Assembly: GCF_000429165.1 (NCBI RefSeq)
Contig: NZ_AUBI01000002.1
Coordinates: 186,001-250,000, forward strand
Reading direction: 5' to 3'
Source: Acetobacter nitrogenifigens DSM 23921 = NBRC 105050
GTDB taxonomy: Bacteria > Pseudomonadota > Alphaproteobacteria > Acetobacterales > Acetobacteraceae
Length of the DNA: 64,000 nucleotides
Shown here: positions 27,307-45,762 of the stretch, in pieces
Layout: every line of letters begins with the position of its first letter
How positions within the stretch are numbered: position 1 is the first letter of the stretch
Position numbers and translations under genes: made by a program
The notes under the pieces: generated by a model
What the model was told of the DNA's origin: nothing
Seen by the model: only the letters and a program-made list of their open reading frames with translations
Databases searched by the model: none

Positions 27307-29691
27307 TCACAGCTTGTATTCGGCGGTCACGAAGATCGTGCGGGGATCTGCGAACGCCGCCGCGTAGTTCACGGGCGAGTAAGCCCCATGCGACGCTGAA
27401 CCGAGCGTATATGACAAGGTCTGCGGATACCTGCGGTCGAGAATATTGCGGACCTGCCCGGTGATGGTCCATCGTCTGTCGTCGCTTGTCCATGTCGCGA
27501 TGGCGTTGAAATATGTCTGCGGCGACAGTCTTGTCTGCGCGTTTTCATTCCCGTCGAGATAGAGCGAAGACTGCCATGAAACGTCGGCGCCGATGCTGAA
27601 CCGGCCCGGCGCACGGCGCAACGGCACACGATAGAAGACGGACGCGTTCATCTGCCAACGTGGAGAATATGGAAGCCGTGCGCCCGAATGCGGCGCGTTA
27701 TTGTATGCACCTCCGTCGGCCAGTTTCAGGGGAGCCGTGGAGACGCCGTCGAAATGGTCCAACTGCGCATAGAGATAGGACGCCGTGTAGTGCATATCCC
27801 AGTTCGATCCGATATGCGCAGTGGCCTCCATCTCCGCGCCTGCGGAGTGCCCTTTGCCCGCATTAAATCTGTGTGAGAGCGCAGTCGTCGCGTCATAAGT
27901 CGTCATCTGGATGTTATTAAAATTATTCCAGAACAGGGCGCCGTTTACTTCCAGAATATGGGCGAGCGGACTGGTCTTCGCGCCAATTTCGAACGTCGTC
28001 ACCAGCTCCGGCTTATAAGGCAGCAAAGCCTGCGCCATATTGGCTGCGCCGGGCGTCTGTGCGCGATAATCGTATCCGCCCGATTTGCTTCCCTGCGAGA
28101 TCGATACGTAGGGCATGACACTTGGCGTGATCTGCCAGGTCAAAGCGCCTTTCGGCAGCAATTGCGTCCAGTCGGCATGGGCTGCGGCGTGCCCCGGCCA
28201 TGCCGAAGCGCCCGGGGCGCCGGAGTAAAGAGCGCCTGTGACGCCCGGCCAGCCCACGGAATGATTGCCGCCAGCTACGAGGTAGTTCAGGTCTTCCGCA
28301 TTCGAATGAGATTCATGATTGAATCGCAACCCCACCGTCGCTGTCAAAGTCGGCGTAATTTTGTATTCCGCCTGCCCATATAAAGCCCAGATACGTGTCA
28401 ACTGATCGATTTTGGCATATACTGGCGTGTAGCTCTGAAGAGAGGCGGCCTGTGAATCCGGGTACCATGCCCCGTTCGTATTGTTCGCCCGCCGTGCAGT
28501 ATACCAGTCTTCGTACATGAAATACGCACCAACGGTGAAGGAGAGCCGTCCATAATCACCGTGCAGATTTAAATCCTCGGAATACGCGCGGTCTTTATAA
28601 TAAAGAAGTTGCGACCGCTGAATGTATTTCGTCCCGTAGTTGTCATAATATCCTGTGTCGTCATACCCCCGAACGGCCGTCGTCGAATGCAGCTGCAGGT
28701 GAGAGTTGACGACATAGTTGACGTTTCCTGTAAATCCGACCTGACTGTAATTATTTTTAGGATAAATCGAAGAATATAAGCCATGGGTGTAGCCATTCAG
28801 CAGATTGCCATACCCCCGGTTGGTCGAGCCATCCACCGTTCCGTCGAACGCGAGCGTAATGTCCCAGCGATCGTTCGGCGTGAAGCGCAATTTTCCACGC
28901 GCCTGCGTGTAATCAATATTATTCTCGGTCTGGTTGAGCGTGTAGTTGCGATCAAAGCCGTCACGGCCGTGACGATCGAAGGCGAGGCTGGCGTAAACAC
29001 GATCCTTCACGAGCGCGCCGCTCGCCAGAAACGCGGCCCTGTATTCATTATATGATCCATATCCAACCAGCGCGCGAAACTGCCTTGTATTTCCTGGCGC
29101 AACGGTGTTGATGCGCACTGCGCCGCCTTCGGCCTGGTGCCCTGCAGTAAAGCCGACCGGCCCACGGTCGATCTGCACGTTATCCACATCCAGCAATTCC
29201 TGCATCGTACCTATAGTCCGCGGCAGATAAACGCCGTCGATATAGGTGCCGACTGACGGCTCTCCTTGCGGGTCAAGTTCTCCAATGCCACGAATGAAAT
29301 AGTTGGTGGCCGAAAACCCCACTGTCGCACGCGGTTCGTACAAATTTGGCGTCAAGTTCGCCAGTTGTCGCACATCCGTCACCCCAAGTTGGCGCAGACG
29401 CTCTCCTGTCAGCAAAGAGATAGACGCTGGAGTGCGTTGCAACGCGGCATGCAGACGCGCGCCGTGCGTCTGTCCGGTAACTGCAATGCTTTCGGCCTTC
29501 CCCACGGACGCTCGGGGCGCCGGATGGCGAACTTGCGCCGCATCGCGGGATTTATGCGCCCCCACAGATCGAGACTGCGATACGTCGGAAGACGCCGCCA
29601 AAGCCGTTGAGGATGTAAAGGCTGACACCAGCAGCATCAGGCGATGGCCGTTTTTCAGGGCGCGTGAAGAATTAACACAAGCTAGCGTCAT
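27307..29691 (-). CDS. TonB-dependent receptor
   Basis: An outer-membrane receptor of 794 residues. A signal peptide is present near residues 17-33 (LMLLVSAFTSSTALA), a TonB-box-like ESIAVTG near 67-73, then a plug with RTPASISLLTGERLRQLGV near 85-103, NYFIRGIGELDPQGEPSVGTYIDGVY near 129-154 and QIDRGPVGFTAGHQAEGGAV. The barrel ends in TIFVTAEYKL. The plug signatures are of the general (cobalamin/FecA/catecholate-like, 'iron complex outermembrane') class rather than the siderophore-specific group. The ligand is unknown. A broken esterase gene lies directly downstream and may once have acted on the imported compound. Confidence 0.88.
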   Translation of the reverse strand: MTLACVNSSRALKNGHRLMLLVSAFTSSTALAASSDVSQSRSVGAHKSRDAAQVRHPAPRASVGKAESIAVTGQTHGARLHAALQRTPASISLLTGERLRQLGVTDVRQLANLTPNLYEPRATVGFSATNYFIRGIGELDPQGEPSVGTYIDGVYLPRTIGTMQELLDVDNVQIDRGPVGFTAGHQAEGGAVRINTVAPGNTRQFRALVGYGSYNEYRAAFLASGALVKDRVYASLAFDRHGRDGFDRNYTLNQTENNIDYTQARGKLRFTPNDRWDITLAFDGTVDGSTNRGYGNLLNGYTHGLYSSIYPKNNYSQVGFTGNVNYVVNSHLQLHSTTAVRGYDDTGYYDNYGTKYIQRSQLLYYKDRAYSEDLNLHGDYGRLSFTVGAYFMYEDWYTARRANNTNGAWYPDSQAASLQSYTPVYAKIDQLTRIWALYGQAEYKITPTLTATVGLRFNHESHSNAEDLNYLVAGGNHSVGWPGVTGALYSGAPGASAWPGHAAAHADWTQLLPKGALTWQITPSVMPYVSISQGSKSGGYDYRAQTPGAANMAQALLPYKPELVTTFEIGAKTSPLAHILEVNGALFWNNFNNIQMTTYDATTALSHRFNAGKGHSAGAEMEATAHIGSNWDMHYTASYLYAQLDHFDGVSTAPLKLADGGAYNNAPHSGARLPYSPRWQMNASVFYRVPLRRAPGRFSIGADVSWQSSLYLDGNENAQTRLSPQTYFNAIATWTSDDRRWTITGQVRNILDRRYPQTLSYTLGSASHGAYSPVNYAAAFADPRTIFVTAEYKL

Positions 29692-30323: not shown

Positions 30324-31913
30324 TCACCCTTTTAAAACACGGAATCCGTGTGTCCCGTCACGCTCAAGCTGCGCAATCAAACCAAATTCCCAGTCAAGAT
30401 AAGCCTGCATCGCCTTTGCAGAGTTATCGGCTCCCTCATAAGGACGTTTGTAGATATCGTTCGGTTCAGACAGCGCAGCTTCCGGCGTCAACCCCACCTC
30501 GATCGGCTGCTTCGCCGCAAGCCATGCGTTCAGCCCCCCCTCCAGAACCTCTACGTCAAAACCCTGGGCCTCAAATTCCGGCGCCGCCAGACGTGCGGCA
30601 AGGCCATCCGGAGACGTCAGGACAATCTTGCGAGCACCTATTTTTCCGAAAATGTCTTCGACATCACTACGAATCGCAAAATGCGATCCTGGAATGTGTT
30701 TTTTTCGAAATTCTGGACTCGTGGCGAGATCAATTACAAACGGGGCCACACGTTCGGACAAATCTTTCACCGAGACGAAGCGCACATCCGGCAGCGGACC
30801 AGCGAGCGGCGCCTGCTCGACACCGCTCTCGCGCGGCAGATCGGACCAGTCCGTCAGAACATAAACCTCATTCCAGCCGAGCTGCCGCAACCAGTGCCCC
30901 GTCATGCGGGCGCGCACGCCGTCATCGTCGGTCAGAACGATCGTTCCATGTCGCACGCCGACCCATTCATCCGTGGCCTGCACCAGCTGGCCGCCAGGCG
31001 CCGACCGAAAACCTGCGAGATGGGACGCCTCGTATTCTTCCGGAGAGCGAACGTCGAGCCGGTACAGCGTACGCGCTGTGTCCGCCGCCAATTCGGCGAC
31101 GCCTGCGGCGTCGATCAACCGCACCCCTGCTCGCTCCGCCAGAGAAATCGCCCCCTGCAACGCGGCTTCCCGGTCATCTTCCAGCACGTCGCCAGCCCGC
31201 TTTGTCTCTCCATGCGCGAGCTGTAATCCCTCAAGCGTCCAGCCAATCGTTCCGTTGCGCAGCGCGAAGACAGGATTGGGAATACCTGCGTTGATCAGCG
31301 ATTGCGCGCCGATAATGGAGCGCGTGCGCCCCGCGCAGTTCACGACAACGGTCGTCTGCGGCGATGGCGCCAGACCACGAACGCGCAACGCCAGTTCCGC
31401 GCCAGGCACTGAACGGCCGCTCGGGATGGACATGGTCGTATATTCGCTGAACCGACGCGCATCGAGCACCACGAGGTCATCCCCCCGCTCGAGGCGTTCA
31501 TACAGTTCCCGCGCAGGCAACGACGGCGTGCCGCGCTCGTGCTCGACCAGTTCGCCGAAAGATTTGGATGGCACATTGACGTCGATGAAAATTTCGCCGC
31601 CCGAATTGCGCCACCCCTCCAGACCACCAGCAAGCGCCGAGACATTCGTGTAGCCCAGCCGCCGGAAAATCGGCAACGCCTTCGCAACGCGCCCTTCCCC
31701 GTCGTCATAAATCACGATGGGCGCGTCGCGACGCGGAGCGAGCCCCGCAAGCCGCTCTTCAATACGCCCGAGCGGCAGGTTCACCGCGAACAGGGGATGC
31801 GCGGCGGCGAACGGGCCTTCCTCCCGCAAATCAAACAGCGCAATCTCCTCGCCGTCGCGAAGTTTTTCGCGAACCACCGTTGAAGACACATGCGGAGAGG
31901 AAAATGCGTTCAT
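30324..31913 (-). CDS. multidomain rhodanese with one catalytic cysteine
   Basis: A 529-residue protein with four rhodanese-like domains, at about residues 10-105, 125-235, 265-370 and 378-475. Only the second has the catalytic loop cysteine (VVVNCAGRTRS, Cys193). The equivalent loops read YDDGEGR in domain 1, LTDDDGVRAR in domain 3 and LTSPDGLAAR in domain 4. The enzyme probably moves sulfane sulfur with the one active domain, and the others may bind substrates or partners. It starts three bases after the thiol dioxygenase stop on the same strand. Pairing of a rhodanese with a Gln-type thiol dioxygenase is known from other proteobacteria. Sulfinate or thiol-derived sulfur is the likely substrate; that part is inference. 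Confidence 0.85.
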   Translation of the reverse strand: MNAFSSPHVSSTVVREKLRDGEEIALFDLREEGPFAAAHPLFAVNLPLGRIEERLAGLAPRRDAPIVIYDDGEGRVAKALPIFRRLGYTNVSALAGGLEGWRNSGGEIFIDVNVPSKSFGELVEHERGTPSLPARELYERLERGDDLVVLDARRFSEYTTMSIPSGRSVPGAELALRVRGLAPSPQTTVVVNCAGRTRSIIGAQSLINAGIPNPVFALRNGTIGWTLEGLQLAHGETKRAGDVLEDDREAALQGAISLAERAGVRLIDAAGVAELAADTARTLYRLDVRSPEEYEASHLAGFRSAPGGQLVQATDEWVGVRHGTIVLTDDDGVRARMTGHWLRQLGWNEVYVLTDWSDLPRESGVEQAPLAGPLPDVRFVSVKDLSERVAPFVIDLATSPEFRKKHIPGSHFAIRSDVEDIFGKIGARKIVLTSPDGLAARLAAPEFEAQGFDVEVLEGGLNAWLAAKQPIEVGLTPEAALSEPNDIYKRPYEGADNSAKAMQAYLDWEFGLIAQLERDGTHGFRVLKG

Positions 31914-31916
31914 GGA

Positions 31917-32516
31917 TCAGGCCGCTTTCGCGTTGAGGGATCGATCCCAGAGATTGGGCGTAACGCCGCTTGAGTAACCAGAGATGAACGGACGTTCCTC
32001 GCCGGTCTCGATATCGTAAACCGCGCGCGAAACGCCGCCAATATTGCCGCCGTAGACGTGGATGGACACGGACGCCCTGTCCTCCAGCGCGTTCGCTACG
32101 ACATGATAGTCATTGACGTCCGGCTCCAGGGACGCAACCTCGCCCTCTTCAAGAAAACTCACGTCTACGCGTTCAAAGCCGCCATCAGAATTCCGCCGGA
32201 ATTGCGTTTCGCTCTCCCGTCCCCGCAGCATTCCGATCAATCCCCAGACCCGGTGATCGTGCAATGGCGTCGTCTGGCCGGGCCCCCACACGAAGCTGAC
32301 GACCGAAAACCGCTCGAGAGGGTCGCAGTGCAGAAGATACTGACTGTATCGCTCAGGATTTGGAACCGCGAAGACGTCCGGCAGCCAGTCGTCCTTGCTG
32401 ACCAGTGTCCGCAAAAGGGAAGCCCCCTCCTGCTGCACAGCCGAAGGAGAGAGACCTCGCTCGAACAGCGCGGTGAAACGGGTAACGAACTCCCGCAAGG
32501 GAACAATGCTGCTCAT
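31917..32516 (-). CDS. Gln-type thiol dioxygenase, 3-mercaptopropionate dioxygenase-like
   Basis: A non-heme iron cupin of 199 residues that oxidises a small thiol to its sulfinate with O2. The iron ligands are His86 and His88 (PLHDHRVWG) and His138 (NDYHVVAN). The Ser151-His153-Tyr155 triad (SIHVYGG) is intact. Where mammalian-type cysteine dioxygenase has a carboxylate-binding Arg (YTRNL), this protein has Gln59 (YSQYLLHCDP), the mark of the Gln-type group typified by 3-mercaptopropionate dioxygenase. There is no cysteine for a Cys-Tyr cross-link; glycine occupies that region. The most likely substrate is therefore 3-mercaptopropionate, with cysteine as an alternative. The gene is followed after three bases by the rhodanese and preceded after six by a class II aldolase gene. 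Confidence 0.85.
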   Translation of the reverse strand: MSSIVPLREFVTRFTALFERGLSPSAVQQEGASLLRTLVSKDDWLPDVFAVPNPERYSQYLLHCDPLERFSVVSFVWGPGQTTPLHDHRVWGLIGMLRGRESETQFRRNSDGGFERVDVSFLEEGEVASLEPDVNDYHVVANALEDRASVSIHVYGGNIGGVSRAVYDIETGEERPFISGYSSGVTPNLWDRSLNAKAA

Positions 32517-32522
32517 CGAATA

Positions 32523-33326
32523 TCAGTCCAAAAGATCCGGCTCCTGTGCGACTATCCAGTCCCACAGAGGTTGGAAAGAATAGTAACCGCCCTGATGCGT
32601 GCCGACCTGACTGGCCGTCAGCTTCGCGATGTCGGGCGCAATAGGCTTAAGCGGACCTGCCGCCTGCGCAAGCAATTGCGTCTGCGCGGCGTTGTCCATG
32701 GTGATGAACCACCATGCGGCGGCCTCTACGGTCGGACCTACGGTAAGCAGCCCGTGATTCTGCAGGATCAACGCCTTGCGGTCGCCGAGAGTCTGCGCAA
32801 GCCGCTCCCCCTCGCTGTCCTCCAGCACCACGCCGCTGAACGGGTCGAAAACGACGTGATCTTCGTAAAAGGCGCAGGAGTCCTGCGTAATGGGCAGCAG
32901 TTCCGTTCCCAGCGCGGAAAACGCCTTTCCATAGGTCGAATGTGTATGCGCCGCCGCGATCACGTCGGGACGCGCCCGGTGCAACGCAGAATGAATGGTG
33001 AAACCTGCGGTGTTGATCGGCCTGTCGCCGATCAGAATGGCGCCGTCATGATCGACGAGTTGCAGATCCGAAACCTTGATCTGGGAAAAATGCACAGCGA
33101 GCGGATTGATCCAGTATTGATCGGGAAATTCCGGATCGCGCGCGGTAACATGCCCGGCCAGACCCTGATCGAAGCCGTAGCGGGCAAAAAGCCGAAACGT
33201 CGCGGCAAGGCGCTGCTTGCGGTGAAGTCTTTCCTCCGCGAAAGACGCTGCGGGCCGACGTGGCTCCAGTTTTCGGGCGCGGGCCTGCTGATCATTATGG
33301 CGGAGCGGGGCTGCGATGACGTTCAT
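32523..33326 (-). CDS. class II aldolase/adducin family protein
   Basis: A 267-residue zinc-type aldolase or adducin-like protein. The family motifs are NHVT-like GHVTAR near residues 58-63, AAAHTHSTYG near 124-133 (zinc histidines) and QNHGLLTVG near 189-197 (third histidine). Many proteins of this sub-type are annotated only as class II aldolase; substrates range from sugar phosphates to short keto acids. It is in one run with the thiol dioxygenase and rhodanese, six bases apart, so I infer a step on a three-carbon product of organosulfur degradation, though the reaction is not established. The ATG at 33326 leaves about 40 residues before the domain; a start closer to residue 28 is possible. 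Confidence 0.78.
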   Translation of the reverse strand: MNVIAAPLRHNDQQARARKLEPRRPAASFAEERLHRKQRLAATFRLFARYGFDQGLAGHVTARDPEFPDQYWINPLAVHFSQIKVSDLQLVDHDGAILIGDRPINTAGFTIHSALHRARPDVIAAAHTHSTYGKAFSALGTELLPITQDSCAFYEDHVVFDPFSGVVLEDSEGERLAQTLGDRKALILQNHGLLTVGPTVEAAAWWFITMDNAAQTQLLAQAAGPLKPIAPDIAKLTASQVGTHQGGYYSFQPLWDWIVAQEPDLLD

Positions 33327-33419
33327 TGGACGTGACCCTTTTGCTTACCGGTTCGATTGACGCGACGATGGACGACCGCGCGGCCCACCCGATCAAGGCG
33401 CCGCAGCACAGAAAATTTC

Positions 33420-34517
33420 TTACGCAGCCTCACGCCCCGCGCCAGAGCGCGCGTCCTCCGCCGCGATCAAACGTCGGGCGAGAGGAATAAGATCCCGTCC
33501 GTAGACATAGGCGTCCTGCAACGGATCGAAGCCCCGGATCAGAATGTTGGTCACGCCCAGACGATAGTAGTCGAGCAGAGCGTCCGCCACCTGTTCCGCG
33601 GTGCCGACCAGCGACGTGGAATTGCCCCGTGCGCCGGTCAGCGCCGCCAGCCCCGTCCACAACCGCTTGTCCAGCCGCGCCCCCTGCGCCGCAGCCGCGA
33701 GCAGACGCCGCGACCCCTCGTTGGGCACAACCGATGGGCGGGCGTAGCCGGTTTGCTCCTGCAAGCCGCGCGCCGTCTCCAGAATATGCTCGGCCTTCGC
33801 CCAGGCCGCCTCCTCCGTCTCGGCAAGAATGGGACGGAGGGACAGCGAGAACCTGACCGTGCGGCCATGCTGCGCCGCAGACGCCTTCACGCGCGCGATC
33901 GTCTCACGCACCTGGTCGTATGTCTCGCCCCAGAGCGCGTAAATATCAGCGTGCTTGCCGGCGACCGCAATCGCCTCCTCTGAAGAGCCGCCAAAAAAGA
34001 CGGGAATGGATGAGCCGTTCTGGGGGCGGATAGCCGAATGAGCGCCACGCACCTTGTAATACTTTCCATCATAGTCGAAGGGCGCATCGCTGCTCCATTC
34101 ACGGCGCACGATGTCGAGGTATTCGCTCGTCCGGGCGTAACGCTCAGCCTTCGTCAGATGGTCGCCGTCCGCCTGCAACTCCCGATCGTCGCCGCCCGTG
34201 ATGATATGCACGGAAGCGCGGCCGCCGCTGATAGCGTCCAGCGTGGCGAACTGCCGCGCCGCAAGCGTCGGCGCAGTGAAACCCGGTCGATGGGCGACCA
34301 TCAGACCGAGCCGACGAGTCACGTTGGCGACATGCTGGGAGATCAGGATGCTTTCCGGGGAATTCGAATGGAAGGCGACCAGAACCCGGTCAAACCCCCC
34401 GTTCTCATGGATTTTCGCGGCCGCCTCGACATGGTCGAGATTCACCACCGGCCCTTCCGCCGGGATAATCTCCGAATGGTTGCGGCCGTTGACGAAGCCA
34501 ATGAAATCAACGGGCAT
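33420..34517 (-). CDS. LLM-class flavin-dependent monooxygenase, SsuD-like
   Basis: A 365-residue TIM-barrel protein of the bacterial luciferase-like family. It follows alkanesulfonate monooxygenase over most of its length: LMVAHRPGFTAPTLAARQFATLD near 73-95, HIITGGDDRELQADGD near 104-119, VFFGGSSEEAIAVAGKHADIYALWGE near 172-197, and GNSTSLVGTAEQVADAL near the end. The active-site cysteine of E. coli SsuD (SCEDAW) is replaced by serine-asparagine (SNSPES). FMNH2 would come from a separate reductase, not encoded here. Probable role: oxidative C-S cleavage of a sulfonate or related compound. It is 93 bases from the aldolase gene and probably co-transcribed with it. The exact substrate is unknown. 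Confidence 0.82.
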   Translation of the reverse strand: MPVDFIGFVNGRNHSEIIPAEGPVVNLDHVEAAAKIHENGGFDRVLVAFHSNSPESILISQHVANVTRRLGLMVAHRPGFTAPTLAARQFATLDAISGGRASVHIITGGDDRELQADGDHLTKAERYARTSEYLDIVRREWSSDAPFDYDGKYYKVRGAHSAIRPQNGSSIPVFFGGSSEEAIAVAGKHADIYALWGETYDQVRETIARVKASAAQHGRTVRFSLSLRPILAETEEAAWAKAEHILETARGLQEQTGYARPSVVPNEGSRRLLAAAAQGARLDKRLWTGLAALTGARGNSTSLVGTAEQVADALLDYYRLGVTNILIRGFDPLQDAYVYGRDLIPLARRLIAAEDARSGAGREAA

Positions 34518-34675
34518 GACGCGCTCCTGATGACTATTTCACTAAAAAAAGTGCCGTTGGCGCTTAATCTACCGTTTTTTTCGTAATTAATGCCATCAAA
34601 AAAACTCAAATCCACCATCAAGATTCGCTCAATAATCCCTTCTCCTGCCGGGACCCCGGACGGCGGTCTGGCCGA

Positions 34676-35575
34676 TTACAGGGACGCAATCGCTGTTTTT
34701 CGACGACGCGGCTTTAATTCACTGGCCACGACGCCCGCCACGATGAACGCCGCGCCCAGAATGGCGAGCGGGGGCAGATGCTCGCCTGCGATCCACCCAA
34801 CGAGGCCAGCCCATACGGGCTCTCCGGCGTAAATGATGGTCGCCCGCGCGGGCGAAACCGCCCTCTGCGCCCAGTTCATGGTCAACTGGATGAGCGCGCT
34901 CGCCATGCCCAGCCCTACCGCAGCGGACAGCCACACCCATGAGAATGACGGCGCAGACTCTCCAGCGATGGGCATGACGACGAATGACAGGACGCCGACC
35001 GTCAGAAGCTGCACGACGGTCACACGAACGCTGTCCACTTTCGATGCGAAACGTCCGATCAGAATGATTTCCGCCGCGATTGCGCAGGCCGAAGCGAAGG
35101 TCGCGATTTCTCCGCGCCCAAGCCCGACGGACATCGCCCCCGGCCCGGTCAGACACAGCAACCCCGTAAACGCAAATCCGATGCCGACCCACGTCATCAG
35201 CTTCGGGCGCCGCTTCATCACCGCCCATTGCAGCAGCGGCGTAATCGGCACGTACAGCGCCGTCAGAAATGCGGAAATACCACCGTCGAGCGTCTCCAAT
35301 CCGTACGTCTGAAGACTGTATCCCAGAAAAATCGAAACGCCGATCAAGGCCCCCGCGCCTATTTCCTTCACGGTCACGGCGCGCATCGTTCGGAGAAACA
35401 GGAGCAGACTCAATCCTCCCGCGATGCTGAACCGGAGTCCGACGAAGAACAACGGCCCGCAATGTTGCATCGCCGTGTGCACGATCAGAAAGGTCGCGCC
35501 CCACAGGACCGTAATGCCCAGCAACGCCATTTCTTCAGGGGAAAAGAACGTTTTGCGAGCGATTAAGGCGGACAT
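34676..35575 (-). CDS. DMT superfamily (EamA) transporter
   Basis: A polytopic inner-membrane protein of 299 residues with ten hydrophobic segments and the two EamA repeats: repeat one from about residue 18 to 148 and repeat two from about 160 to 290. ITVLWGATFLIVHTAM near 21-36 and MASALIQLTMNWAQRAVSPARATIIYAGEPVWAG near 224-257 are typical. EamA proteins usually export amino acids or small metabolites. The gene is the first of the minus-strand run that continues into the organosulfur genes after 158 bases, so it may move a substrate or product of that pathway, but EamA neighbours are common and the link is weak. Confidence 0.85.
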   Translation of the reverse strand: MSALIARKTFFSPEEMALLGITVLWGATFLIVHTAMQHCGPLFFVGLRFSIAGGLSLLLFLRTMRAVTVKEIGAGALIGVSIFLGYSLQTYGLETLDGGISAFLTALYVPITPLLQWAVMKRRPKLMTWVGIGFAFTGLLCLTGPGAMSVGLGRGEIATFASACAIAAEIILIGRFASKVDSVRVTVVQLLTVGVLSFVVMPIAGESAPSFSWVWLSAAVGLGMASALIQLTMNWAQRAVSPARATIIYAGEPVWAGLVGWIAGEHLPPLAILGAAFIVAGVVASELKPRRRKTAIASL

Positions 35576-43948: not shown

Positions 43949-44074
43949 TTTCCCGACCGGCGTACGCTAGACCTTCTGTCGCTTAGGGCAGTCATTTTCT
44001 CAGGCGGCGCGATGCAGGGGCGTCCTCAGGACCCCGCTTCGCACCGCCGCCAACGGGTATCAGGCAAGAAGACC

Positions 44075-44824
44075 ATGAAAATTCTCGTCCCGGTAAAACG
44101 TGTCGTCGATTACAACATCAAGGTCCGCCCGAAAGCCGACGGGACAGGCGTCGAGACCGCAGGTCTCAAGATGTCGATGAACCCGTTCGACGAAATCGCC
44201 GTCGAAGAGGCTCTGCGGCTGCGCGAGAAAGGCGCTGCGACGGAAGTCGTCGCCGTGTCGATCGGCGTGCAGCAGGCGCAGGATACGCTGCGCACGGCGA
44301 TGGCGATGGGTGCGGACCGCGCCATTCTGGTGCTGACGGAAGAAAGCCCGGAGCCGCTGGCGGTCGCGAAGATCCTCAAGGCGATCGTCGAGCGCGAGAC
44401 GCCCGATCTCGTGATCCTCGGCAAGCAGGCCATCGACGACGACATGAACGCCACCGGCCAGATGCTGGCCGGCTTGCTCGGCTGGCCGCAGGGCACGTTC
44501 GCCAGCAAGGTGGAACTGGCCGACGGTCGCGCCGAAGTCGCGCGTGAAGTGGATGGCGGCACGGAAGTCGTCTCCATCGCGCTGCCCGCCATCGTGACGG
44601 CCGATCTGCGCCTCAATGAACCGCGCTACGCCTCCCTGCCCAACATCATGAAGGCGAAGAAGAAGCCGCTTGAGACGCTGCAGGCCAGCGACCTCGGCGT
44701 CGATACGACGCGGCGCCTGACCGTCGTCTCCGTCGCCGAACCGCCCGCCCGCAAGGCCGGCGTCAAGGTCGGCTCCGTCGAGGAGCTTGTTGAGAAGCTG
44801 CGTAACGAAGCCAAGGTGATCTGA
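44075..44824 (+). CDS. etfB: electron transfer flavoprotein subunit beta
   Basis: Small subunit of ETF, 249 residues, accepting electrons from acyl-CoA and other dehydrogenases. The N-terminus is [19 protein letters not shown], and the ETF beta signature region [26 protein letters not shown] lies near residues 180-205, matching the family signature for the contact with dehydrogenases. The ATG at 44075 is the first good start; the frame upstream has no coding character. It starts 126 bases after the ETF-QO stop and ends two bases before the etfA start. It forms the conventional etfBA pair. Confidence 0.95.
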
Positions 44825-44826
44825 TC

Positions 44827-45762
44827 ATGACCGTTCTTGTTTTTGTCGAGACCGAAGCCGGTCACGTTCGTCAGGCCTCCCGCAGCGCCATCGCCGCAGC
44901 GTCCAAGCTGGGCGAGGTCCATGCCCTCGTGGTCGGCGACGCCGCATCCGTCGGCGCGGGCGCCGAAGCCGCCGCGAAGATCCCCGGCGTGACGAAGGTC
45001 CTGAAGGCCGGAAGCGACGCCCTGGCGCACACGCTGGCCGAACCTCTGGCCGACCTCCTCGTGTCGCTCGCTGGCGATTACTCGCACATCGTCGCCGCCG
45101 CATCGTCCGTGGGCAAGAACGTGCTGCCGCGCGCTGCCGCCCTGCTCGACGTGCAGCCGATCCCCGACGTGCTGGACATCGTCGACGCCGACACGTTCGT
45201 CCGCCCGATCTACGCCGGCAACGCGCTCGCCACGGTCAAATCGGCGGACGCCAAGAAAGTGCTCACCATCCGCGCGACCAGCTTCGACCCGGCCCCGGCC
45301 GAAGGCGGTTCCGCCTCCATCGAAGACGCCGCCGCTCCCGCTGCGGGCGACACGTCGCGTTTCGTTTCCGCCGAGACGCCGACCAGCGACCGACCAGAAC
45401 TGGAGTCCGCGCGCGTGATCGTCTCCGGCGGCCGTGGGCTGCAGAACGGCGAGAACTTCAAGACCGTGCTGGAGCCCCTAGCCGACAAGCTGGGCGCCGC
45501 CATCGGCGCATCCCGCGTCGCCGTGGATTCGGGCTACGTGCCCAACGATTATCAGGTCGGCCAGACCGGCAAGATCGTCGCGCCGGAGCTGTATATCGCT
45601 GTCGGCATTTCCGGCGCGATCCAGCATCTGGCGGGCATGAAGGACAGCAAGGTCATCGTCGCCATCAACAAGGATGAAGACGCGCCGATTTTCCAGGTCG
45701 CGGATTATGGGCTTGTCGGCGACCTGTTCGACGTCGTTCCCAAGCTCGCCGCCGCGCTGTAA
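44827..45762 (+). CDS. etfA: electron transfer flavoprotein subunit alpha
   Basis: FAD-binding large subunit of ETF, 311 residues. The N-terminal domain runs to about residue 185. The C-terminal FAD domain has [16 protein letters not shown] near 197-212, [40 protein letters not shown] around 233-272 and [20 protein letters not shown] near the end, all characteristic. It starts two bases past the etfB stop and is followed by a rho-independent terminator, so the etf unit ends here. Confidence 0.95.

Follow-up and report, generated by a model that had tools for sequence, protein, structure and literature searches.

A run of four genes in Acetobacter nitrogenifigens DSM 23921 raises the question of what a protein annotated as a class II aldolase is doing among proteins that are concerned with organic sulfur. 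These genes are located in a stretch of 64,000 nucleotides (contig NZ_AUBI01000002.1, positions 186,001 to 250,000; referred to here as the window). A preliminary description, based upon the sequence alone, had proposed that they specify a single organosulfur pathway. The analyses reported here indicate that the four-gene set is a real, conserved, accessory organosulfur operon, which is built on the known 3mdo-tst gene pair, and that its aldolase-like member is predicted to be an oxygenase. A published description of this gene set was not found by title or abstract start in the PMC library that was searched, and the names of related genes had no match in PMC12581299. The four genes are as follows:

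33420..34517, minus strand: LLM, FMNH2-dependent group C monooxygenase with an SsuD/MsuD-like fold (365 aa; PF00296, 232.7 bits)
32523..33326, minus strand: ALD, class II aldolase/adducin fold, predicted three-histidine Fe(II) oxygenase (267 aa; PF00596, NF004855/PRK06208)
31917..32516, minus strand: TDO, Gln-type thiol dioxygenase, predicted member of the 3-mercaptopropionate dioxygenase group (199 aa; PF05995)
30324..31913, minus strand: RHO, four-domain rhodanese with a single active-site cysteine, Cys193 (529 aa; four PF00581 stretches)

The genes are contiguous at 30324–34517 on the same strand, with intergenic gaps of 93, 6, and 3 bases, and both their coordinates and their families are exactly those of the preliminary description. 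A simple scan detected no terminator-like or promoter-like site between them.

Conservation of the Gene Set

Among 37 genomes from this genus, TDO is present in 16 and RHO (at least 64% identity) is found in the same 16, while ALD (at least 80%) and LLM (at least 73%) are each present in 15 of them. At these thresholds, none of RHO, ALD, or LLM was detected in the 21 genomes that are without TDO. As Fisher tests across the 37 genomes tie RHO, ALD, and LLM to TDO (p-values of 7.8e-11, 1.7e-9, and 1.7e-9, respectively, uncorrected for shared ancestry), the grouping of these genes within the genus goes beyond chance. The colinear order LLM-(dehydrogenase)-ALD-TDO-RHO is seen in 12 of the 16 TDO-bearing genomes. 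The genomes G029 and G031 retain LLM-TDO-RHO with ALD at another site (the rhodanese of G029 being in two pieces, one of them with an internal stop), G034 is without ALD, and in G030 LLM was not found beside the other three genes. Acetobacter sacchari (locus L021) contains a 97% identical rhodanese in the same gene order as the 4.27 Mb genome examined here. Genome G017 contains two near-identical LLM-dehydrogenase-ALD-TDO-RHO operons about 0.5 Mb apart (C1:1624799-1629934 and C1:2140229-2145364; L118 and L119), apparently the result of a recent duplication.

Outside the genus, the distribution was examined in 80 named loci, which are the best 80 of at least 542 rhodanese matches and are rich in Pseudomonas. 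TDO adjoins RHO in 77 of these loci, and LLM (at least 50%) is present within 9 kb of RHO in 56. ALD (at least 50%) is located near RHO in 24 of the 80 loci, comprising 12 of 13 from the Acetobacteraceae, seven of 10 from a mainly Caulobacterales group, five of 19 from the beta and none of 38 from the gamma group; the ALD-like genes of the latter (34–44%) were tallied separately. Other genes near RHO encode a dehydrogenase (28 loci), an SfnB-like protein (51) and a sulfonate-type binding protein (55). Some of the contigs are short, with only short coverage of L151 and L156, and the absences recorded here amount to lower bounds.

The identical four-gene order also occurs on Paraburkholderia plasmids. 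In Paraburkholderia, Azospirillum, Roseomonas, and Burkholderia and on a Nostoc plasmid, LLM and ALD are direct neighbors or have a single gene between them, and in Rhizobium they are in the same cluster. ALD matches were obtained on 44 plasmid records (E 1e-60). LLM (at least 50%) was present in six of 11 of these records selected by hand and TDO together with RHO in three, while two further records of the 44 (L101 and L106) were reached through TDO. In Azospirillum thermophilum (L158:17465-20709), the operon lies near a type II CRISPR locus, the annotation of which divides cas9 into two pieces that overlap.

The Aldolase-Like Protein

ALD passes the curated cut-off for NF004855 (430.5 vs. 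255 bits). Its residues were mapped on FucA, as given in the genome record of Escherichia coli, in 39 sequences consisting of 38 relatives and that of the window; for the residue counts reported here, sequences that contained stops, had low coverage or were duplicates had been removed beforehand. The metal-binding histidines H127, H129, and H191 (FucA 92, 94, and 155) are retained in all 39 sequences. The position of the FucA catalytic residue Glu73 is occupied by G108 in ALD, and by Gly in 23 and Ala in 15 of the 38 relatives. Other active-site residues of FucA are also replaced in ALD, viz. Asn29 by H59, Ser71 by T106, Ser72 by A107 and Tyr113 by Q148 (once Arg among the relatives). According to excerpts of the study from which this FucA residue list derives, pyruvic oxime dioxygenase, an Fe(II)-requiring aldolase homolog, likewise keeps only the histidines (PMC5216522).

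When ALD was searched as a single sequence against solved structures, NovR was the best match, followed by 4xxf and TqaM, whereas by profile the order was 3ocr (318 bits), 4xxf (294), NovR (287), and TqaM (201); the profile E-value was 8.3e-85 for NovR vs. 1.2e-35 for pyruvic oxime dioxygenase. In fold comparison, based upon a model of mediocre quality (pLDDT 65.9), NovR was placed first (E 1.6e-22) and TqaM obtained 2.9e-19, while FucA reached at best 3.7e-10. Excerpts of the relevant papers describe that CloR/NovR use iron held by three histidines and O2 for decarboxylation of a 2-oxo and then a 2-hydroxy acid (PMC13111500), and that TqaM carries out oxidative decarboxylation of a 2-hydroxy acid (PMC11880133). 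NovR and TqaM are the closest solved relatives whose chemistry has been studied, and as both are Fe(II) oxygenases, oxygenation is a likelier reaction for ALD than aldol cleavage. Judged by its residues, its nearest structures and a dehydrogenase that is often its neighbor, ALD is likeliest a 2-oxo/2-hydroxy-acid Fe(II) oxygenase and not a sugar-phosphate aldolase.

The dehydrogenase in question, a D-2-hydroxyacid dehydrogenase, is located within 400 bp of 29 out of 42 ALD genes (at least 50% identity), a tally in which some genomes are counted twice as they contribute both named and unnamed loci. A gene fusion of the two was considered for a single 596 aa open frame (L140:8609-10399). However, as the C-terminus of the dehydrogenase apparently continues in another frame, this is regarded as a frameshift or sequence error. 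On a plasmid of Agrobacterium deltaense (L165), a relative of ALD (51%) is accompanied by genes annotated as lactate 2-monooxygenase and as the ketopantoate reductase family, which is a 2-hydroxyacid/2-oxoacid setting, and no sulfur gene is present among the annotations shown.

The SsuD-Like Monooxygenase

Against the SsuD equivalog model TIGR03565, LLM scores 225.7 bits, which is far below the cut-off of 518.2. Its best sequence match in the PDB is MsuD/SsuD, and its predicted structure (pLDDT 91.3), a luciferase-like TIM barrel, aligns with MsuD with a Z-score of 42.4 (2.5 Å over 344 residues, 33% identity); by fold it is further from SfnG (Z 36.0) and sulfoquinovose monooxygenase (Z 36.1). 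The active-site residues of SsuD considered here (numbering without Met) are Cys54, Arg226, His228, Arg297, and Tyr331. The corresponding residues of the LLM pocket are S53, S226, R228, T294, and F330. The preliminary description had noted the missing cysteine and had seen in it a hint of a different substrate. The first point is borne out and the second is supported by 81 relatives of LLM (at least 48% identity), none of which has Cys at this position and all of which show the changes of Arg226, His228, and Tyr331 to Ser, Arg, and Phe; Arg297 is replaced by Thr or Leu in 75 of them. An internal control is provided by locus L144, where an SsuD-like paralog beside the LLM relative retains all five SsuD residues, and excerpts of one study describe MsuD and SsuD as having conserved active-site residues (PMC8234197). 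Because the pocket residues of SsuD are substituted, LLM is predicted to act on a substrate other than a classical alkanesulfonate, and we consider this likely. Another contig of this genome (G000:C25:1187-2254, L136) carries a further SsuD-like gene (about 60%) in which the same residues are altered, near a gene of the nitroreductase family.

The Thiol Dioxygenase and the Rhodanese

The residues H86, H88, H138, Q59, R164, S151, H153, and Y155 of TDO match, at a constant offset of 4, the active-site residues of Av3MDO (including Gln63 and Arg168) that are given in excerpts of its description (PMC8050391). With the exception of S151, they are invariant in 92 relatives (at most one exception each), and TDO also aligns with the enzymes from P. 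aeruginosa and Azotobacter. The presence of every residue that was checked supports the prediction that TDO is a thiol dioxygenase of the 3-mercaptopropionate dioxygenase type. In RHO, only one of the four domains contains an active-site cysteine (Cys193 in domain 2, in the motif CAGRTRS), which is kept in 109 of 109 relatives. The 3mdo and tst homologs of P. protegens apparently form one transcription unit, according to excerpts of a recent study, and loss of 3mdo leads to an increase in extracellular 3-mercaptopropionate (3-MPA) (PMC12947264).

Accessory and Flanking Genes

The loci of relatives contain in addition genes for LysR, flavin reductase, NMT1/SsuA-type binding proteins, an ABC permease and ATPase, and an acyl-CoA-dehydrogenase-like protein, as well as, often, the D-2-hydroxyacid dehydrogenase beside ALD. 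The SsuA-family binding protein in L101 exceeds its curated cut-off. For the acyl-CoA-dehydrogenase-like neighbor, the best curated match is SfnB (101–117 bits, cut-off 430.9). Its identification as a 3-sulfinopropanoyl-CoA desulfinase was considered but set aside, as the scores against that model (95–97 bits vs. a cut-off of 600) are far too low and SfnB fits slightly better. The sulfonate-type importer, the flavin reductase and LysR are absent beside the four genes of the window; contig C9 of the same genome, however, has relatives of the LysR (82%) and SfnB-like (66%) genes together with binding proteins, ABC genes, a permease, a flavin reductase and an AhpC/TSA-like protein. Because these genes are located on C9, the module appears to be split in this genome. 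In Sodalis, TDO-RHO adjoins genes of a tripartite tricarboxylate transporter, and on a Bradyrhizobium plasmid a relative of TDO adjoins a CoA transferase without RHO. On plasmid pNe_5 of Nostoc edaphicum (L161), the LLM-ALD pair is clustered with MetQ/NlpA and permease genes annotated as a methionine transporter, an acyl-CoA-dehydrogenase-like gene and a second LLM, which possibly reflects horizontal spread.

Two further features of the window flank the operon:

34518..34675, minus strand: leader/promoter region upstream of LLM
27307..29691, minus strand: TonB-dependent receptor downstream of RHO (PF00593/PF07715), membership uncertain

The ATG of LLM is preceded by AGGAG, and no comparably strong site was seen by eye within 25 bases of the other three starts. 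No sigma-70-like site was found in the upstream region, and the counts from the promoter scan equaled those for shuffled sequences. A visual comparison of upstream regions, in search of a regulator site in common, established nothing, and the window and A. sacchari are unlike other members of the genus in this region. The TonB-dependent receptor is a possible candidate for an outer-membrane importer of the substrate. Its relatives (55–58%) adjoin RHO in the opposite orientation in the genus loci L114–L118, L120, L123, and L127, and one is located further away in L121. The EamA gene (34676–35575) was rejected as part of the operon, since its sole match in these neighborhoods is in the near-identical A. 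sacchari locus; a weak 28% match to EamA is present in L167, at a distance of about 7 kb from ALD. Elsewhere in the window (44012–45762, plus strand), genes for electron transfer flavoprotein beta-like and alpha domain proteins are found side by side.

Proposed Function and Alternative Explanations

We place at somewhat better than even (a probability of about 0.55) the explanation that these genes constitute an accessory operon for sulfur assimilation in which ALD serves as an Fe(II) oxygenase, the mechanism being drawn from sequence and gene context. According to this proposal, LLM, for which a separate reductase would provide FMNH2, would oxygenate its non-classical substrate and cleave a C–S bond, TDO would convert a carboxylated thiol (3-MPA or similar) into a sulfinate, and RHO would act through Cys193 alone in the transfer or detoxification of the released sulfane sulfur or sulfite. 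ALD, using O2 and Fe(II) bound by three histidines, would oxidatively decarboxylate a 2-oxo or 2-hydroxy acid, which in many relatives would be supplied by the neighboring dehydrogenase. The net output would be sulfite or sulfide for cysteine synthesis under sulfate scarcity; LLM, TDO, and RHO would form the core, to which ALD and the dehydrogenase would add an accessory cassette that broadens the substrate range.

A number of observations weigh against this proposal. The structure model of ALD is weak, and a near solved relative, 4xxf, which the fold comparison places in its top five rows, was deposited as a fuculose-1-phosphate aldolase. A close D-2-hydroxyacid dehydrogenase was not found in the genome of the window (best match 35%), and in Burkholderia cenocepacia all four genes are within 10 kb but in mixed orientation. 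In a control anchored on ALD, 385 alphaproteobacterial genomes were searched and 18 passed the family cut-off, including that of the window; at the 17 other loci, LLM (at least 50%) was present in three, TDO/RHO in two and the dehydrogenase in three. Because so few of these loci carry the partner genes, the ALD family also works elsewhere, and its linkage to them is strong in only part of the family. The conservation of the neighborhood, to which the preliminary description had looked, thus holds within the genus (15–16 of 16) and is partial outside it, as seen from the presence of ALD near RHO in 24 of 80 loci and of LLM at 3 of the 17. Finally, excerpts of the P. protegens study report no significant change in 3-MPA upon deletion of tst, the rhodanese gene (PMC12947264). 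The deletions in this species therefore support the assignment of the dioxygenase and suggest that, under the conditions of that study, the rhodanese does not contribute greatly to the turnover of 3-MPA.

The control loci also bear upon a different explanation, in which ALD and, in the relatives, the dehydrogenase form a bystander cassette that acts upon a substrate of its own, and the sulfur operon consists only of LLM, TDO, and RHO. Thirteen of the 17 loci have neither LLM (at least 50%) nor the dehydrogenase, ALD is missing beside the other three genes in G034 and L034, and it is carried elsewhere in G029 and G031. However, ALD follows TDO in 15 of the 16 genus genomes, is missing from the 21 that lack TDO (E 1e-50), and is again next to LLM, or separated from it by a single gene, in five other genera (Paraburkholderia, Azospirillum, Roseomonas, Burkholderia, and Nostoc), and we regard this explanation as doubtful. 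It is quite unlikely, in our estimation, that the pathway of the preliminary description is correct as it stood, i.e., SsuD-like C–S cleavage, thiol oxidation and sulfur transfer, with the carbon fragment going to a genuine metal-dependent aldolase. The gene order, the families, the three retained metal histidines and the position of 4xxf (second by sequence and in the top five by fold) agree with it. The aldolase step is nevertheless disfavored by the replacement of Glu73 (Gly or Ala in 39/39 sequences), Asn29, Ser71, Ser72, and Tyr113, and by the fact that NovR, the best match by both sequence and fold, and TqaM, the next characterized structure, are oxygenases, yet 4xxf bears its deposited aldolase name. 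What survives of that single pathway is one conserved organosulfur unit with a dioxygenase of the 3-mercaptopropionate type and a relative of SsuD whose active site suggests another substrate.

The purpose of the operon may also be viewed differently. That it chiefly detoxifies thiols or sulfite, rather than assimilating sulfur, could account for the rise of extracellular 3-MPA in the P. protegens 3mdo deletion (PMC12947264), and excerpts of another report discuss a Variovorax rhodanese, near a related mercaptosuccinate dioxygenase, in connection with sulfite removal (PMC9594981). The importers and the SsuA-family binding protein found in association suggest uptake rather than clearance, and a primary role in detoxification appears very unlikely. 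Carbon catabolism of 3-MPA or thiodipropionate in the manner of Variovorax and Advenella, i.e., by Mdo, a CoA transferase or ligase and the Acd desulfinase, is in our view most improbable. The Mdo-type residues of TDO, the weak match of the acyl-CoA-dehydrogenase-like neighbor to the desulfinase model, and the Sodalis and Bradyrhizobium arrangements are consistent with it, but the four genes of the window include no CoA transferase, CoA ligase or TctC, and the neighbor, far below the desulfinase cut-off, resembles SfnB slightly more.

A more specific route may also be suggested, to which we attach only a small likelihood. The operon and the dehydrogenase of its relatives would form an O2-dependent path from a sulfur-bearing 2-oxo or 2-hydroxy acid to sulfite, in which ALD decarboxylates the substrate, LLM S-dealkylates the product to 3-MPA, and TDO converts this to 3-sulfinopropionate. 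As a guess, the substrate could be the methionine-derived 4-methylthio-2-oxobutanoate, which ALD would convert into 3-methylthiopropionate; this guess is based upon the dehydrogenase neighbor and the methionine-transporter-annotated genes near the Nostoc LLM-ALD pair. The structures of 3-mercaptopropionate-type thiol dioxygenases have been well studied. If true, this route would reveal a physiological origin of their substrate, and it would assign to the aldolase fold a part in sulfur metabolism. More generally, the annotation of this subfamily as an aldolase may misdirect pathway reconstruction, and an oxygenase function of ALD would alter the chemistry to be looked for. By linking a 3-mercaptopropionate-type dioxygenase, a divergent relative of SsuD and a likely Fe(II) oxygenase, the set points to concrete substrates to test.

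Comparison with Known Systems

The Mdo-Acd catabolism of Variovorax and Advenella shares with the operon the dioxygenase chemistry expected of TDO, but its genes for CoA activation are not at the operon of the window; the Advenella 3-MPA cluster, as described in excerpts, includes TctC receptors and the desulfinase (PMC9594981). Pyruvic oxime dioxygenase resembles ALD in being an Fe(II)-needing class II aldolase homolog without the other active-site residues of FucA, but it is more distant, and no nitrification context is seen at ALD. NovR/CloR and TqaM share with ALD the fold, the three histidines and the lack of an equivalent of FucA Glu73, although by profile NovR and TqaM are outscored by 3ocr, which has no stated chemistry, and by 4xxf, the deposited aldolase. 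In addition, these enzymes serve in antibiotic or fungal amino-acid biosynthesis, whereas ALD, for which the use of iron and O2 is predicted, is part of a sulfur operon. With SsuD and MsuD of the Ssu and Msu systems, LLM has in common the fold, the FMN group C type and, in its relatives, sulfonate-type ABC neighbors, but it falls below the SsuD equivalog cut-off and its Arg226, His228, and Tyr331 are replaced. A further likeness is with the 3mdo-tst genes of Pseudomonas (PA2602-PA2603 and the P. protegens homologs), which constitute the same pair as TDO and RHO. In many Pseudomonas loci, LLM is located upstream of a LysR gene and a more distant aldolase-like gene (34–44%) is on the opposite strand, whereas in the window LLM and ALD are part of the same run as this pair.

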